Shown here one piece after another: positions 9,905-33,537 of a stretch of DNA of 42,317 bases. The number at the start of each line of letters is the position of its first letter. Within the stretch, counting starts at the first letter, position 1. Both the position numbers and the translations under genes were made by a program. The notes under the pieces were generated by a model. The model ran no database searches and was not told the DNA's origin. It saw nothing but the letters and a program-made list of their open reading frames with translations. The DNA comes from a candidate division KSB1 bacterium. Lineage in GTDB: Bacteria > Zhuqueibacterota > JdFR-76 > DREG01. The stretch covers positions 1 through 42,317 of the forward strand of contig JADFJB010000022.1 of the NCBI GenBank assembly GCA_022566355.1, given 5' to 3'.

Positions 9905-12208
9905 TTGGCCAAACTATTTACATTTAGAAAAAATCAAATCAATGGGAATTCTTCATCCAAGGAACCTGTACATTGGTATAGATCAATCACATTCCTTAGG
10001 TTCTGCCTTGGATTTGTCTTTCTCCTTATAACTTTACTTATATTTCCACATGGAGAATCCTTTAAATTTGCAATTCTCAAGGAAGGAAATATATCCAGCG
10101 AGGAAGTAATTGCCCCATTCACATTCAGGGTTCAGAAAAATCAGCAACAGCTAACCCTTGAAAGAGAAGAAGCGTGGGGAAAGATATTACCGGTATTTCA
10201 CTATTCGGATTCGACCTTATTGAATTCTCAGACAGAACTAAAAATTCTTCAAGATAGTCTTAAAAACATATTAAGCTTAACTCTCAATGATTCTTTAAAA
10301 CAACAAGAAATCGAACGAATCTTAAACGATAATGATATTATTCTTACTAAAGATCTAATTCCATTTTTTATTCATCTAAGTCAAAAAGAAATTGATCAAA
10401 AGCAGTTGGAGCTGGATTTCCAACCTTATGATCGTTATTTCGATCAGCTTGAAAATATCTTAGTAGATATTCTCGTGCTTGGTGTGTGTGATATTAAAAA
10501 GACTGAAATTCCAAATTTTAAAAATAAGATCACGGTATTACGTTCAAATCAGGAATTTGAAAAATCGAGTAATGAGTTTTATGAACTTTCTGAAGCAGAA
10601 GATAGATTATTGGAGAAACTGCAAGGTCAATTTGTCGAAAATAGTGATTCGGTTAAAGTTGGTTATGCATTATTGGAATCTTTGCTCACTACAAATTTAA
10701 TTTTAGATCGTGAATTAACCGAATTCAGAATCGATGAAGCTATTGCACAAATTCCCCTTGTGAAGGGAAGAATATTAAAAAGTGAAAGAATTATTGATAG
10801 CAATGAGCGCGTAACGCTTGAGCACATTGATATATTCCATTCTCTGGGAGAAGAGCTTCGAGCTAGAGAAAAGCAAGCTGGATTCATTTCTCAAGCTCTA
10901 ATCTGGCTCGGTAAAATTTTATTGATTATCAGCACTCAGATTCCTTTGCTTTTGTTCTTATATTTTTATCGACGTAGCATTTGGGATGATCTGCGTATGA
11001 TGTTTATCATAACATCATCAATGTTGTTTGTTGTTGTTGTGGCAGTGATTGTGATGGACTATGATGTGCCTAAATTTTTAATCCCGTTTGCAACAGTACC
11101 CCTTATTGTTACTTCTTACATGGACACGAGGTCAGGATTGTTCGTTGGGCTTAGCTTAAGCTTTTTGATTAGTGCTGAACTCGGGTTGGATTATGAAATT
11201 GCATTAATTGGAATGTTGGTGTCGTCTGCTTCAATAATTTCATTTGGCTTATCAAAATTTCGGAAGCGCCTAACAAACGCAACTTTAGTTTTAGCAATAG
11301 CCTATGTTCTTGGTATTACCGCTGTGGGAATCCTTCGCTTTATTAGTTTGAATGATTTAGGTTTGGCACTTGCCGGTGCCCTCGGAGCCGCTATTTTTTC
11401 GCCAATACTCGCGTATGTATTTATAATGCTTTTTGATTCTGTCTTTGATGTAGCTTCAGAGTTTAAGTTGATTGAATTAAGTGATTTAAATAATCCAATG
11501 CTTAAAATGATGTCATTACGTTCTCCTGGATCTTATCATCACAGTTTACAGGTGAGTAATTTAACCGAATCCGCTGCAGAAGCAATCGGTGCAAATGCCT
11601 TATTGGCTAAAGTAGGCGCTTATTATCATGATTTAGGCAAAATGTTTATGCCGGAATATTTTGTTGAAAACCAATTTAACGGCAAAAATCCACATGACCG
11701 ACTTTCACCTCGGTTGAGTAGTTTAATTTTGATAAACCATGTTCGAAAGGGCTATGAATTTGCCAAACATAATAAATTACCCTCAGTTGTGTCTGATTTT
11801 ATTTTGGAGCATCACGGGCAAAGCTTAATGAAGTTTTTTTATGAAAAAGCAAAAGAAAACACTAAGTCAAAGAATATTGAAATTCTTGAGAGTGATTTTC
11901 GCTATCCGGGCAATCGACCCAAAACCAGGGAGACAGGTATTTTAATGTTGGCTGATTCTGCTGAAGCAATGGTTCGATCCATTAAAGATCCAAACCTTGG
12001 AAAAATTCGTAATGCTGTCAAAAATATTGTTAACGACAGGTTTCATACAGGCGATTTGGATAATTGCCCGCTAACAGTTAAAGAGCTTCGAATAATAATT
12101 GATACGTTTTCAAATATACTTACCGGAATTCATCATGATAGGGTCGAATACCCCGGACAAAAAAAGATGACTTTAGGTACAACATCAAAAAAAGTTTTAG
12201 CGTCTTAA
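9905..12208 (+). CDS. pgpH: 7TM-HD (PgpH/YqfF-type) cyclic-di-AMP phosphodiesterase
   Basis: Membrane phosphodiesterase of 767 aa that hydrolyses c-di-AMP in its characterised relatives (PgpH). One N-terminal membrane helix (about 27-48) is followed by a large extracytoplasmic domain (about 50-330) rich in E/L/I. Seven membrane helices follow (about 335-515), then a cytosolic HD domain. The HD motif is visible as SYHHSLQVSNL near 543-552 and YYHDLGKM near 573-580, with LEHHGQS and LMLADSAEAMVR further on. The start is TTG 9905, with AGGAA about 8 bases upstream; no ATG fits. It lies between phoH and ybeY (11-base gap), as in many phyla. No diadenylate cyclase gene is in this window. Confidence 0.94.
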   Translation: MAKLFTFRKNQINGNSSSKEPVHWYRSITFLRFCLGFVFLLITLLIFPHGESFKFAILKEGNISSEEVIAPFTFRVQKNQQQLTLEREEAWGKILPVFHYSDSTLLNSQTELKILQDSLKNILSLTLNDSLKQQEIERILNDNDIILTKDLIPFFIHLSQKEIDQKQLELDFQPYDRYFDQLENILVDILVLGVCDIKKTEIPNFKNKITVLRSNQEFEKSSNEFYELSEAEDRLLEKLQGQFVENSDSVKVGYALLESLLTTNLILDRELTEFRIDEAIAQIPLVKGRILKSERIIDSNERVTLEHIDIFHSLGEELRAREKQAGFISQALIWLGKILLIISTQIPLLLFLYFYRRSIWDDLRMMFIITSSMLFVVVVAVIVMDYDVPKFLIPFATVPLIVTSYMDTRSGLFVGLSLSFLISAELGLDYEIALIGMLVSSASIISFGLSKFRKRLTNATLVLAIAYVLGITAVGILRFISLNDLGLALAGALGAAIFSPILAYVFIMLFDSVFDVASEFKLIELSDLNNPMLKMMSLRSPGSYHHSLQVSNLTESAAEAIGANALLAKVGAYYHDLGKMFMPEYFVENQFNGKNPHDRLSPRLSSLILINHVRKGYEFAKHNKLPSVVSDFILEHHGQSLMKFFYEKAKENTKSKNIEILESDFRYPGNRPKTRETGILMLADSAEAMVRSIKDPNLGKIRNAVKNIVNDRFHTGDLDNCPLTVKELRIIIDTFSNILTGIHHDRVEYPGQKKMTLGTTSKKVLAS

Positions 12209-19958: not shown

Positions 19959-21551
19959 ATGATGAATAAAAAGACAATATTGGTAATAGATGATAAACCT
20001 AAAAACATAGAAATACTGGTCGGTGGATTAATTAATAGTCACTTTCAAGTTGTAACTTCCGATTCAGGATTCGATGGTTTGCAAAAAGCACATCATATTT
20101 GTCCCGACTTAATCCTAATTGACGCGCAAGTTAGCGATTTGAATGGACATGAATTCCTTAGCAAGATAAAGGAAGATTCCACCGTTTCCGATATTCCAGT
20201 TTTGTTGTTGACAACGAATTCGGATATTGAAGAAAAAATAAATGCTTTTGAAAATGGTGCAAAGGATTATATTATTAAACCATTGCACGTAAGTGAAATT
20301 GTTGCAAAGGCAAAAATGATTCTGTCAAGACTAGATCGAAGGCAAATGGAACAGAAAAAGGATATTGGTAACGTAAGCGGAAAACTCGAAGGAAAAGGGT
20401 TGTTGGATTTAGTGGAAGATTTATCCGCACAACGTTTTAGTGGAATCCTTAATCTCACAAATAACTTTAAGAAGAATGGTCAAATATTTTTTGTAGAAGG
20501 TCAAGTGGTCAATTCTACTCTTAACGGCTTTCATGGAGAAAAAGCTGTTTACCAGATGGTTTCATGGACTAAAGGAGAATACACAATTATTACCCAGGAT
20601 GTTGATGTGGAAAAGACCATAACAATAGGAAATATTGATTTAACTCTTCAGTCAAAAAAACGAATAGAAAAACGACGGAAACTTCTACTTGAACTTCCTT
20701 CATCGGACACCATATTCAAACTTAGTAATACTTTTGTAACGCTTATAGAAGATCGGGAAATGCCAGTTGATATCATTCAATTTATTGAACTTTTAGATGG
20801 TAAAAGATCAGTGGATAAAATAATGAATGACAGTAAACTTGATGACCTGGTTGCCATTGAAAGAATTGTAAAAATGTATGAACAGGGATTTCTAACCGAG
20901 GTAGAAAAACCGCGGCAAGAGATTACTGTTGAAGAAGAAACGACAACTAAGAAAGAACCCATATTTTTGCAGAAGGAGTTCGAGGTTTTCCAAAAACGAG
21001 TACTTGGATCGGATAATGGCAGCAAACGGTTGTTAGCAATTATAGGAACTGCTTCAAGTGGGAAAAGTGAGCTTATACAAACCCTTGCCTGTAGTGACTA
21101 TCAAGAAAAAACCATGAAAAGCATTTTCCCAAACCCTGTTGAAATAGGCAAATTTCTTGCTGCTGATGATTTGGAGCTTACTTTGCTGGGAGTTCCGGTT
21201 GAAAAGCAATTAGGTATTTTCCTGGATTCATTTGAGGAAAATATCCTGGGTTATATTATTATCATTAACGCAATTGAACCCGAATCCTTTAGTTACCTGG
21301 GTTATTTGTTAAAAACATTCCGCAGTCAATATCAATTACCTTATGCGATAGCTATTACTAACCTGAGACATCCACAAGCAATAGGAATTGAAACATTGGC
21401 TCAGGAATTGTATTTGGAAGATTTTGAAGAATTGGTTCCTTGTAATCCTTCTGATTCTGATAATGTGAAAATGGTATTTCTTAGTATGTATTCTCCTTTT
21501 AGTAATCGAGGCAAATTAAATTCACAAACAAATATTAGTCATTTTAATTAA
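19959..21551 (+). CDS. Response regulator: receiver - PATAN (DUF4388) - degenerate COG2229-like GTPase domain
   Basis: The product is 530 aa. The receiver domain (1-125) is complete, with acidic pair D11/D12, phospho-acceptor D55 in LILIDAQVSD, a Thr at 85-86 and K107 in IIKPL. PATAN/DUF4388 follows (about 140-230; SGKLEGKGLLDLVEDL, GQIFFVEGQVVNSTLNG). The C-terminal 180 residues hold a P-loop GTASSGKS (363-370) and segments collinear with COG2229-type small GTPases: LTLLGVPVEKQLGIF where GTPGQERF is usual, YIIIINAIEPESF, and AITNLRHPQAIG where NKxD is usual. The switch and base-recognition motifs are thus degraded. It lies 9 bases before a paralogous pseudo-receiver protein. A role in signalling to motility, polarity or development is a guess. 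Confidence 0.85.
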   Translation: MMNKKTILVIDDKPKNIEILVGGLINSHFQVVTSDSGFDGLQKAHHICPDLILIDAQVSDLNGHEFLSKIKEDSTVSDIPVLLLTTNSDIEEKINAFENGAKDYIIKPLHVSEIVAKAKMILSRLDRRQMEQKKDIGNVSGKLEGKGLLDLVEDLSAQRFSGILNLTNNFKKNGQIFFVEGQVVNSTLNGFHGEKAVYQMVSWTKGEYTIITQDVDVEKTITIGNIDLTLQSKKRIEKRRKLLLELPSSDTIFKLSNTFVTLIEDREMPVDIIQFIELLDGKRSVDKIMNDSKLDDLVAIERIVKMYEQGFLTEVEKPRQEITVEEETTTKKEPIFLQKEFEVFQKRVLGSDNGSKRLLAIIGTASSGKSELIQTLACSDYQEKTMKSIFPNPVEIGKFLAADDLELTLLGVPVEKQLGIFLDSFEENILGYIIIINAIEPESFSYLGYLLKTFRSQYQLPYAIAITNLRHPQAIGIETLAQELYLEDFEELVPCNPSDSDNVKMVFLSMYSPFSNRGKLNSQTNISHFN

Positions 21552-21560
21552 AGGTTTATT

Positions 21561-22634
21561 ATGCCACTAAATGTCCTTTTGGTGGATAATCGCCAAGATA
21601 TAATTGATGAATTTAAATCTGCTAATTGGGGCGAGAATTATTCAATTCATGTCATAAACTCACAGGCAATGGCTTTAAACTTTTTGGCTGACCAATCTAT
21701 TGATTTAGTTTTCATAGCAAATCAACTTGATGGTGCTGATGGTGTGGAAATCATTCAAGAGATTAAGAAGCAAAGCAACGGTAATAACCCCCTTTTTATT
21801 ATTCTTTCTGATGAATCCGATTATCGTATCAGGGTTCAACAAATGACAGAACATATTGACGAATTCATAAGAGTGCCATTTCATTCAAAAGAATTGGTTT
21901 TGAAAACGAATATTCTAGTATCCGAATTACAGAGTGCCCCTAAGCGATCGCTGAAGTCGGTAGCAAGTTTTTCAGGCAAACTAAGCGAAATGAGCTTATT
22001 GGATTTACTGCAATCCCTGGAACTTGGTGAAAAATCCGGAATCATATATCTGCAACACGACCTCCAACACGGGAAAGTCTATCTACAGAAGGGATTGGTT
22101 TGTGAAGCAGAATTATCCGAAAAATCGGGAAAAGATGCGTTTATGAGTATGGCTATTTGGTCAGAGGGCGCCTTTGTTGTAGAATTTACCTCTGCAGAGA
22201 CGGTCAAAAAGGTTGAGGAAACTACCAAAGAATTGATTTCTCAAGGTAGAGAACTATTAAATGAATGGAATGACCTAAAGAAAAATTTCTCTGATTTCGA
22301 AATTTTGTTTGAAGTTGAAGAAGAATTGGACAGAAACCTTTTAGATGCGAATTCACAAGTACTACTCCCATTGGTTGAAGAAGGTAAGAAATTAAAAGAA
22401 ATTCTTATAGTTAGTCCATTGGGTGAAGTTGAAACGTTGCAATCCATTAAAAATATGGTAGATAAAGGTATTATTCGTGAAGCTATAAATAATGGTGTTC
22501 AAAAGACAGAACAATCTCCGGATGATCAACCAGATAAAAAGTCAGATGCCAATTCAAATTATGGTTCTCAAATCATGGATAACTTCGTCGAGAGAATCGT
22601 AAACAAAAATAAATCAGCTGAAGATATGAATTAA
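21561..22634 (+). CDS. Pseudo-receiver - PATAN (DUF4388) protein
   Basis: The product is 357 aa and paralogous in layout to the preceding protein. The receiver-like domain (1-122) keeps the fold pattern (NVLLVDN, DLVFIANQLDGADG, LFIILSD, EFIRVPFHSKEL). The phospho-acceptor Asp is replaced by Ala (A53), the conserved Lys by Val (V105), and the acidic pair is reduced to D-N, so phosphorylation is not expected. PATAN/DUF4388 lies at about 135-220 (FSGKLSEMSLLDLLQSLELGEKSGIIYL), followed by a helical, acidic region with a winged-helix-like repeat of the PATAN C-terminal extension (about 225-310). It shares a transcript with its neighbour. Partner binding or constitutive signalling is inferred. 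Confidence 0.85.
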   Translation: MPLNVLLVDNRQDIIDEFKSANWGENYSIHVINSQAMALNFLADQSIDLVFIANQLDGADGVEIIQEIKKQSNGNNPLFIILSDESDYRIRVQQMTEHIDEFIRVPFHSKELVLKTNILVSELQSAPKRSLKSVASFSGKLSEMSLLDLLQSLELGEKSGIIYLQHDLQHGKVYLQKGLVCEAELSEKSGKDAFMSMAIWSEGAFVVEFTSAETVKKVEETTKELISQGRELLNEWNDLKKNFSDFEILFEVEEELDRNLLDANSQVLLPLVEEGKKLKEILIVSPLGEVETLQSIKNMVDKGIIREAINNGVQKTEQSPDDQPDKKSDANSNYGSQIMDNFVERIVNKNKSAEDMN

Positions 22635-22738
22635 AGGATTCATTTTTACATTTATCCTTCAAACTTTTCTATCATTTGTTACATTCCTTAAATATAGTTA
22701 AAATATTGATTTATGGTATTCCTTTAACTCAATAGCTA

Positions 22739-22767
22739 TTGACATTTGATCTAAAAAACTTTATATT
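22739..22767 (+). promoter_or_regulatory. Sigma-70-type promoter for the tRNA-Leu/tig unit
   Basis: TTGACA (22739-22744), a 17-base spacer and TATATT (22762-22767) make a near-consensus promoter with an expected start near 22774. That is about 40 bases before tRNA-Leu. A terminator-like hairpin lies between the promoter and the tRNA. Confidence 0.8.
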
Positions 22768-22780
22768 TCATAGACTCGGT

Positions 22781-22811
22781 CGCTCCTGCTTATTAGGGCG
22801 TCATTTTTTTT
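22781..22811 (+). terminator. Hairpin plus T-tract in the tRNA-Leu leader
   Basis: CGCTCCT (22781-22787) pairs with AGGGCG (22795-22800) with one bulged T, followed by TCA and eight T. It has the form of a Rho-independent terminator. It lies downstream of the best promoter in this spacer and 4 bases before the tRNA. It could end transcripts from the PATAN genes or act as a leader structure of the tRNA precursor. Confidence 0.5.
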
Positions 22812-22814
22812 ATT

Positions 22815-22897
22815 GCGAGAGTGGCGGAATTGGCAGACGCGCTAGATTTAGGATCTAGTGGGGTTTCCCCGTGGGGGTTCGAGTCCCCCCTCTCGCA
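22815..22897 (+). tRNA. tRNA-Leu (anticodon UAG)
   Basis: The full class II cloverleaf is present. The acceptor arms GCGAGAG (22815-22821) and CTCTCGC (22890-22896) pair perfectly. The anticodon stem CTAGA/TCTAG encloses the loop TTTAGGA with anticodon TAG, read as UAG for CUA leucine codons. A long variable arm (GTGGGGTTTCCCCGT) and a GGGGG-TTCGAGT-CCCCC T-arm follow. The discriminator base is A22897. CCA is not encoded (ACGA follows), so it must be added post-transcriptionally. A tRNA-Leu just before tig is seen in several other bacterial genomes. Confidence 0.97.
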
Positions 22898-22954
22898 CGA
22901 GTATCGAGTATATAGAATATGCTAGGTTTTAAGAGAATCTTAAAATAAGAGGAA

Positions 22955-28613: not shown

Positions 28614-29201
28614 ATGAAACAATTTGAGGCTGAGTTCCATCACGCCTCTTACACGCCAGGCGATTTCCCAAAAGATCAATTCAATCAAATTGCATTTGCC
28701 GGAAGGTCCAATGTCGGCAAATCATCCATGATCAATTGTTTGATCAGCCAAAAGAACCTGGCCCGAATCAGTTCGCATCCGGGCAAGACGCGATCCATAA
28801 ATTTTTTGTTGATCAATCGCCGGTTTTTCTTTGTTGATTTACCAGGTTATGGCTATGCAAAAATATCGAAGGCTGAAAGACAACGATGGAAAACATTAAT
28901 TGAGAGTTATTTAATGGATAATTCTAAACTTAAGGGATTGATTCACATTATCGATTCAAGGGTCGGTTTAACTAACCTCGATGAAGGAATGTTGACTTTT
29001 GCCTCAGAAATTCATTTGAATACCGTTATTGTAGCTACAAAAATCGATAAGCTAAAACAGAGTGAAAAAGTGAAAAACTTTCGACTGATCGAAAAGAAAT
29101 TAGCTGAATTTGGACTATCTGAATACATTCCTTTCTCTGCTAAAACGAAATTTGGCAGGAAAGAAGTGCTCCATTGGATTGAAAATAGCTTAAAGCTTTA
29201 A
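28614..29201 (+). CDS. engB: Ribosome biogenesis GTP-binding protein EngB (YsxC/YihA)
   Basis: Essential-type GTPase of 195 aa acting in large-subunit assembly. G1 is GRSNVGKSS (about 33-41), the G2 region is KTRSINF, G3 is DLPGYG, G4 is TKID and G5 is SAKT; all are intact. It begins 3 bases after lon and ends 2 bases before the next gene, so lon, engB and the class V aminotransferase gene probably share a transcript. A lon-engB pairing is common in bacteria. Confidence 0.97.
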   Translation: MKQFEAEFHHASYTPGDFPKDQFNQIAFAGRSNVGKSSMINCLISQKNLARISSHPGKTRSINFLLINRRFFFVDLPGYGYAKISKAERQRWKTLIESYLMDNSKLKGLIHIIDSRVGLTNLDEGMLTFASEIHLNTVIVATKIDKLKQSEKVKNFRLIEKKLAEFGLSEYIPFSAKTKFGRKEVLHWIENSLKL

Positions 29202-31722: not shown

Positions 31723-33537
31723 ATGAATATGAAACAACTCTACGTTTTATTGTTAGCATTATTCTCCGTAGGATGTGCAACGACGAAAGTCGATAAGCCA
31801 CAAGAGACCGCTAAAACAGAAGATGTAGATCAGAAAAAGGATGAAAAGGAAAAGCACCATATAGCAGTTTCCCGCTATATGGATGGCATTTTGGAAAGCG
31901 ATAATGGTGAATGGGAAAAAGCACTACTTGCTTTTCAGGAAGCGTTATTATTTGATCCGGATACACCCTCTATCCTTCGATCGATCTCGGAAGCATATTC
32001 AAATCTAGGCCGCATTGAAGCGGCAATAAAAACGGCAAACCAGGCAGTTGAATTAGCACCACAGGAAGCGGATGGTTATAAGCTGCTCGCGGATCTTTAT
32101 AGTAAAACGCGTCAGTTTAAGAAGGCACTGGAGAAATTTGAAAAACTAAAGACACTTAATCCCCAGGATATTGAGATTCGTTATAAACTCGCCAACCTGT
32201 ACGTGTTGCTCAACCAGGGAGAAAAAAGTATAGCAGAGTTTCAGGAAATTTACCGGCTTGAGGGGTATAAACCGGAGGTGTTGTTTAGAATAGGCGAGCT
32301 ATATATCCAATCAAAAAAATATGAGAAAGCCATTGAGACTTTCCAGGACGTGGTAAAGCAGGAACCAGGCAATGAAAATGCATATGTTTTTCTAGGAATG
32401 ACTAAATTGATGCAAAAAGATACTGCAGGGGCTGTTCTCATTTACCAGCAAGCACTAAAACAAGATGAAAAATTTGTCAGGATCCGCGATAGTCTGGCTG
32501 AAATTTATTCTGCTCAAGAAAAGTGGGACAAAGCAATTATCTTGTATCAAGAATCCGGTAATCAGGATTCCAGTGATGTGATTGCCCGATTACGGATTGC
32601 GGAAATTTATCTTACCAAAGGAGATACCCTAAAGTCAGATATGGCATATCGGGATTTGGCAACAGATTTTCCCAAAGATTGGCGATCGTATTATTATCTA
32701 GGCAGGCTTCAGTTTGATGCGGGGCAATCCGATTCTGCTGTTGTAAATCTTAAAAAAGTCATTGAGCTTAATCCTAAATTACCTGACGCCTGGAATTTCC
32801 TTGGATTTGTGTATATTCAAACCAAACAGAACGATTCAGCCAAAGTGCATTTTGAAAAGGCCCTGAAACTATTTCCAAATGATGACCGGCTTAATTATTT
32901 TTACGGCTATTTGTTAAGTCAAATGGATAAAAAAGGGGATGCCGTTAAGTATCTTTCACGCTCTCATCAATTAAATCCGAATAATCCGGCTTCTACCCTG
33001 GAGCTGGCCAATTTATATATTCAATTAAAGAGTTATAACAATGCCATTAAATTATGTGAAACCTTATTACGAAGAGATCCGGAAAACTTAAGCGGCTTAC
33101 TCACCCTGGCATCTATTTTTGATTTGCAGAAACGATTTACTAAATCCGAACCTTTATATGATAAGGTTATGAAGCTGAAGCCTGGCGATCCCGTTATGTT
33201 AAATAATTTTGCCTATAGTCTGTCAATACGGGGAATACGTTTGGATGAAGCGCTTCAAATGGCAAAAACTGCTGTGGAGAAAGATTCCACCAGAGGCGCC
33301 TATTGGGACACATTGGGCTGGATTTATTATAAATTGGGAGACAATCAACTTGCTTTGCAGTATGTTAAAAAGGCAATCGAATTAAGGGAGCCTTCTGCTG
33401 AGGTGCTCGATCATATGGGCGATATTTATATGAAATTAGGGGATTTCAAGACGGCCGAAACCTATTGGCAACAAGCGATCGAAAAGGAGCCGGGTAATAG
33501 GGAAATCTTTCGGAAATTGGAAAAAGGAGAATTATGA
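31723..33537 (+). CDS. TPR-repeat lipoprotein
   Basis: The product is 604 aa. A short signal sequence ends in the lipobox FSVGC (Cys near residue 18), so the protein is lipid-anchored. Residues about 45-600 are a near-continuous array of roughly fifteen TPR-type helical hairpins, with repeated patterns such as PDTPSILRSISEAYSNLG, EAYKLLADLYS-like and AYWDTLGWIYYKLGDNQLAL. In-frame ATGs at 31723 and 31729 are both plausible. TPR solenoids are protein-interaction scaffolds, and in the envelope they serve outer membrane assembly, secretion or gliding machineries. The stop is immediately followed by the start of a LolA-like lipoprotein, so the two are probably partners (inference). Confidence 0.92.
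   Translation: MNMKQLYVLLLALFSVGCATTKVDKPQETAKTEDVDQKKDEKEKHHIAVSRYMDGILESDNGEWEKALLAFQEALLFDPDTPSILRSISEAYSNLGRIEAAIKTANQAVELAPQEADGYKLLADLYSKTRQFKKALEKFEKLKTLNPQDIEIRYKLANLYVLLNQGEKSIAEFQEIYRLEGYKPEVLFRIGELYIQSKKYEKAIETFQDVVKQEPGNENAYVFLGMTKLMQKDTAGAVLIYQQALKQDEKFVRIRDSLAEIYSAQEKWDKAIILYQESGNQDSSDVIARLRIAEIYLTKGDTLKSDMAYRDLATDFPKDWRSYYYLGRLQFDAGQSDSAVVNLKKVIELNPKLPDAWNFLGFVYIQTKQNDSAKVHFEKALKLFPNDDRLNYFYGYLLSQMDKKGDAVKYLSRSHQLNPNNPASTLELANLYIQLKSYNNAIKLCETLLRRDPENLSGLLTLASIFDLQKRFTKSEPLYDKVMKLKPGDPVMLNNFAYSLSIRGIRLDEALQMAKTAVEKDSTRGAYWDTLGWIYYKLGDNQLALQYVKKAIELREPSAEVLDHMGDIYMKLGDFKTAETYWQQAIEKEPGNREIFRKLEKGEL

Follow-up and report, generated by a model that had tools for sequence, protein, structure and literature searches.

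Two adjacent genes in the analysed stretch of DNA (the window, 42,317 nucleotides of a candidate division KSB1 genome) encode PATAN/DUF4388 proteins, here called A and B, whose adjacency is conserved across the candidate phylum (KSB1 and kin). A joins a receiver and a PATAN domain to a C-terminal domain of predicted Ras-superfamily fold that has lost most of the motifs for GTP hydrolysis, and B combines a pseudo-receiver with a second PATAN domain. The reading that we favour, with some reservation, is that A and B form the centre of a module spanning the phylum, in which the GTPase-like domain of A docks without hydrolysis and D55 of its receiver controls the assembly of A with B. The domain make-up, the fold, the loss of motifs, the synteny and the absence here of two genes (C and D) that follow B in relatives are seen in the data; the hetero-assembly, the docking role and the phospho-control are our inference.

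Domain architecture of A and B

Both open reading frames are intact and 9 bases apart, and the coordinates given for them in the first-pass annotation were correct (Table 1). Besides A and B, only one other DUF4388 protein was found in the host genome (4.62 Mb, 98.5% complete); the genome's third receiver-PATAN protein (L149:7735-8475, 246 aa) has no recognised GTPase gene adjoining it. According to Pfam and the full-length model, gene A is laid out as receiver, PATAN/DUF4388, helical region, linker and a putative Ras-fold pseudo-GTPase domain, with a short disordered linker at residues 318-328 (pLDDT <50). The PATAN/DUF4388 domain scored above the curated cut-off of PF14332 (25 bits) in both proteins, with 35.1 bits in A and 57.5 bits in B. 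Alignment of the receivers bore out the phosphorylatable receiver previously assigned to A by D55 and K107, as the full phosphorylation set (D11/D12, D55, T85 and K107) is present, and this receiver can in principle be phosphorylated. The same alignment confirmed that B has Ala at the phospho-acceptor and Val at the Lys (A53, V105), so both the acceptor Asp and the Lys of a phosphorylatable receiver are missing and B is predicted not to be phosphorylated at the usual residue.

Table 1 Features of the A-B region, with positions in the window.
Feature	Position	Strand	Basis
Gene A, 530 aa	19959..21551	+	ORF; Pfam; full-length model pLDDT 87.8
Receiver of A, residues 7-118	19977..20312	+	PF00072 (Response_reg) 5.1e-21; aligned residues
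D55 codon of A receiver	20121-20123	+	
K107 codon of A receiver	20277-20279	+	
PATAN/DUF4388 of A, residues 140-236	20376..20669	+	PF14332 1.5e-8
Helical region of A, about residues 241-316	20679..20906	+	Model secondary structure
Predicted Ras-fold pseudo-GTPase domain of A, residues 338-514	20970..21500	+	Profile, model, Foldseek
G1/P-loop GTASSGKS, residues 363-370, retained	21045..21068	+	Alignment with intact relatives
G3 position GVPVEKQ (LGVPVEKQ), residues 411-417, replacing GTPGQxR; Gly-Gln lost	21189..21209	+	Alignment
G4 position TNLRHP (AITNLRHP), residues 467-472, replacing NKQD; guanine-specificity motif lost	21357..21374	+	Alignment
Gene B, 357 aa: pseudo-receiver, PATAN/DUF4388, C-terminal tail	21561..22634	+	ORF; Pfam
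Pseudo-receiver of B, residues 5-114	21573..21902	+	Response_reg 1.2e-11, weaker than in A
A53 codon of B, at phospho-acceptor	21717-21719	+	
V105 codon of B, at conserved Lys	21873-21875	+	
PATAN/DUF4388 of B, residues 138-237	21972..22271	+	PF14332 1.8e-15
Gap at position of C and D in order-level relatives	22635..22954	.	Order-level synteny; no remnant

No Pfam match above cut-off was obtained for the C-terminal domain of A. A profile made of this domain and its relatives matched Ras-superfamily structures in the PDB (Rab5 at 2.4e-5, Arl15 at 2.1e-4 and others), and a model of the isolated domain from 73 sequences (pLDDT 88.7, pTM 0.84) placed strands and helices in a Ras-like order. The domain was modelled alone because Foldseek on the full-length model was swamped by receivers; the best matches listed for the domain model were Arl1, Arl/Arf, FeoB G domains, one G-alpha and MglA (3t1o, 6izw). 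Structure prediction, profile and Foldseek thus found the P-loop NTPase fold that the first-pass annotation had put forward for a check, and the domain is, on this modelling, of the P-loop GTPase (Ras-superfamily) fold.

The motifs were compared with those of intact MglA-family relatives (G1 GxxxxGKT, G2 TTVAMDFG, G3 FGTPGQ, G4 NKQD). The P-loop that A was said to have kept aligns with G1, the G2 Thr is absent (SIFPNPVEIG at the aligned position), and the sequence described earlier as a degenerate base-recognition motif does align with G4. The supposedly lost switch II likewise aligns with G3, but the DxxG Asp is absent from the intact MglA-family relatives too, so that the real loss at G3 is that of Gly-Gln. 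None of the aligned A and C members retains G2, G3 or G4. G1 of A survives chiefly in two groups, the window's order and f96 (a genome family from outside the phylum), and was lost in nearly all other relatives; across the order it ends in GKS, GKN, GKS, GKG and GRS, the f96 A proteins keep GLPSSGKS, and the stand-alone C of L041 has GPKSVGKE. Identity between the window and its order was 47-48% for the GTPase-like domain, 46-57% for the receiver and 41-46% for PATAN. A docking rather than an enzymatic role is probable because most motifs for GTP hydrolysis are lost, and, since its conservation also equals that of the neighbouring domains, binding is the most economical role to assume; we infer from the motifs that the domain does not hydrolyse GTP. 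The P-loop kept in the window's order may bind nucleotide, which counts against reading the domain as a non-hydrolysing adaptor.

Conservation and origin of the gene set

Linkage was counted over 40 loci of relatives. B comes after A in 39 of them, counting L043 where both lie in the same ORF, and the sole exception (L051) is a contig edge; the neighbourhood check proposed for the pair in related genomes therefore found it linked. In L043 (2838-5177) A and B are joined as one 779-aa ORF, but the joint truncates the GTPase-like domain and the second receiver in a 72%-complete draft genome, and this fusion, which may be a deletion or an assembly error, was set aside as proof of interaction. The next gene in 35 of the 40 loci is C, a stand-alone paralog (~160 aa) of the GTPase-like domain of A that matches the same profile and is equally degenerate. 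D, a protein of ~130 aa with a conserved C-x6-C-x4-C-x6-C motif, follows in 25 of the 40 (L039:5962-6366, L041:9816-10217 and 23 others); it has no relative in Pfam or NCBIfam and no credible one in the PDB, and its Cys motif is possibly metal-binding. Small GTPase and roadblock identities guessed for C and D were rejected, C being without the motifs and D without such relatives. D may not belong to the module, because it is unlinked from A-B-C in some KSB1 families (in L128, the only such locus annotated, it lies beside RNase Y, DXS and DUF2203 genes); it is also present in 6 genomes outside the phylum. The conserved unit consists of A-B plus the second GTPase-like protein C, and this gene order holds over most of the phylum despite differing flanks. 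In the window's order SpoIID lies upstream and tig/clpP/clpX lie downstream; in several other families the downstream genes encode Peptidase_MA_2 and a lipid A acyltransferase. Peptidase_MA_2 was seen downstream of A-B-C-D in L046, L047, L058, L061 and L071, and the acyltransferase gene also in L047, L058, L061 and L071. These neighbours hint at a link to the envelope.

Neither C nor D survives in the window lineage. Searching the 320-base gap downstream of B by tblastn with C and D proteins gave no remnant of either, a profile search of the host genome gave no match to D at E values up to 10, and the C profile found only A's own domain and no second GTPase-like copy. One D protein matched 28965-29117 weakly by tblastn; with no D in the genome by profile search, we regard this as a chance match. 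Both genes are retained in a genome of the same family as that of the window (G002). Elsewhere in the window, 9905-12208 encodes a 7TM receptor with an HD hydrolase domain, PgpH-like by Pfam architecture and a candidate cyclic-dinucleotide phosphodiesterase, and 31723-33537 encodes a long TPR-repeat protein (604 aa).

In the alignment of A receivers the acceptor position is occupied by Glu in 32 of 40 and by Asp in the other 8, six of which come from the window's order and two from another genus. Asp, Thr/Ser and Lys are found throughout that order, in one member of which (L042) Lys replaces one residue of the acidic pair, and in most of the phylum the A receiver is also without part of the acidic pocket. 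B receivers are mixed at the acceptor (Ala, Gly, Thr, Glu or Asp). The receiver tree showed at least two Asp/Glu changes on supported branches, its root being unsure because of long branches. The receiver/pseudo-receiver pair that was highlighted earlier is present in the window but is not the essence of the module: since most A receivers have no acceptor Asp and B receivers are mixed, this asymmetry is lineage-specific and not module-wide.

The GTPase-like profile reaches intact MglA-family GTPases of other phyla. It matched ten copies in a 9.2-Mb single-contig genome of another phylum, which judging from gene sizes and copy number are probably conservon CvnD GTPases. A GTPase gene (178-179 aa) directly follows a stand-alone gene of PATAN type (211 aa) in L137 and L138; the pairing of PATAN and GTPase was confirmed by Pfam in L137, by profile in L138 and L140 and, more weakly, by profile in L135. 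The f96 family carries the full A-B-C trio (L132, L133), and Pfam still assigns one of its A proteins to Arf (1.1e-6). In the domain tree the fused (A) copies group apart from the free (C) ones, with one long-branched exception (L134). A's domain, C and the intact GTPases share ancestry. Because intact MglA-family genes adjoin stand-alone PATAN genes elsewhere, A looks like a PATAN/GTPase fusion that then decayed, and the simplest history would lead from a PATAN-GTPase gene pair through fusion of one copy to decay of the catalytic motifs in both.

Proposed working of the module and competing explanations

According to our favoured reading, the ancestral pair would have comprised a response-regulator/PATAN gene and an MglA-family small GTPase; one copy of the GTPase would have fused to the end of A and another stayed free as C, both then losing their catalytic motifs. 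The GTPase-like domain of A would probably now be a fixed, non-hydrolysing docking surface, and the complex would be held together by receiver and PATAN in both proteins. In the window lineage an unlinked histidine kinase would phosphorylate A at D55 and so alter its assembly with B; a scan of ten other window proteins gave no kinase domain. As C, its usual partner gene, is missing, the module may not act in the same way here. On contig C145 of the same genome (L148:7335-8891) a roadblock protein is followed by an MglA-like GTPase and then a 144-aa protein. The motifs of this GTPase are intact (GPGLSGKT, TVPGQ, NKQD), and the single Robl_LC7 match of the genome lies here and none by A-B, which are thus without the coupled roadblock of MglA-MglB. 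The C145 set is likely the organism's canonical MglA-type system and is a candidate partner of A-B.

A substantial minority view among our readings is that A-B-C is largely a signalling complex of dead domains (Glu/Ala receivers and two pseudo-GTPase families), preserved throughout the phylum and serving pure docking, and that the window's order kept or regained phospho-control. We consider it rather unlikely that in this order the GTPase-like domain of A is still a nucleotide switch, the receiver gating binding or exchange at the kept P-loop. The intact GTASSGKS of the window fits such a switch, as do the f96 proteins with GLPSSGKS and an Arf score, but the G2 Thr, the G3 Gly-Gln and NKxD of G4 are all lost, and the closest relatives differ in the final residue of G1 and even in its Lys (GKN, GKG, GRS), which we read as relaxing nucleotide contact.

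An alternative explanation treats A and B as a conventional response-regulator/PATAN pair that targets a motor or polarity system, with the GTPase-like tail as an accessory. PATAN regulators of Synechocystis (PixG, PilG, TaxP2) bind the type IV pilus motor PilB (as cited in PMC10519157), and the intact roadblock/MglA-like gene set on another contig would suit this explanation. It is nevertheless unlikely: the GTPase-like domain is conserved as much as the other domains, A and C together maintain two such copies across the phylum, and among the genes recognised in the neighbourhoods examined none was for a pilus, those that recur being the metallopeptidase and the lipid A acyltransferase. The absence of C and D could also mean that the operon is a decaying remnant, the loss of both genes and of the phospho-site of B marking a module that is dying in the window lineage. 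This we regard as very improbable, given two intact ORFs only 9 bases apart, domains of A that are 41-57% identical to those of order-level relatives, and the presence of D55 and K107.

Relation to known systems

MglA genes have been found near PATAN genes (PMC4316618), MglA works with response regulators, and FrzS is a pseudo-response regulator (PMC4316618, PMC11580455). The domain of A has the fold of the MglA family (COG2229-type, including conservon CvnD) and belongs to it by profile. Members of that family are single-domain proteins of about 150-240 aa, whereas in A the GTPase is fused to receiver-PATAN within 530 aa and is without G2, G3 and G4; relatives add a second degenerate, stand-alone copy (C), in a module without a roadblock partner. 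PatA, PixG and PilG of cyanobacteria resemble A and B in having a receiver and PATAN, with no DNA-binding output domain recognised. The PATAN domain of these regulators is N-terminal (PMC10519157) but follows the receiver in A and B; A adds the predicted Ras-fold domain, and motor binding is known only for the cyanobacterial side. FrzS, RomR and AglZ of Myxococcus xanthus are likewise (pseudo-)response regulators that work with an MglA-type GTPase; there the GTPase is separate and active, with MglB as its GAP, while that of A is fused and looks inactive. The pseudoGTPase domains of p190RhoGAP are, as in A, motif-less GTPase-like parts of a larger regulator (PMC5593906), but the protein is eukaryotic and of unrelated architecture. 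The excerpts of open-access texts on MglA and PATAN make no mention of a receiver-PATAN-GTPase fusion, a search of titles and abstracts of the open-access literature gave no example of a bacterial pseudoGTPase, and open-access literature on DUF4388 is almost nil.

Of the undescribed signalling module suggested by the first-pass annotation, the linked genes and the GTPase-like fold stand, but the system is a variant of known PATAN/MglA signalling. The tie between PATAN and MglA-type GTPases previously came from gene neighbourhood, and in A both occur in one protein, evolutionary evidence that the two work together, where the fused GTPase appears to have turned into a pseudo-GTPase. Finding a culturable host may prove difficult, since the named relatives seen are metagenome assemblies. 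If true, such a collection of pseudo-GTPases and pseudo-receivers, spread through a bacterial phylum, would lend itself well to studying the reuse of switch domains as adaptors.
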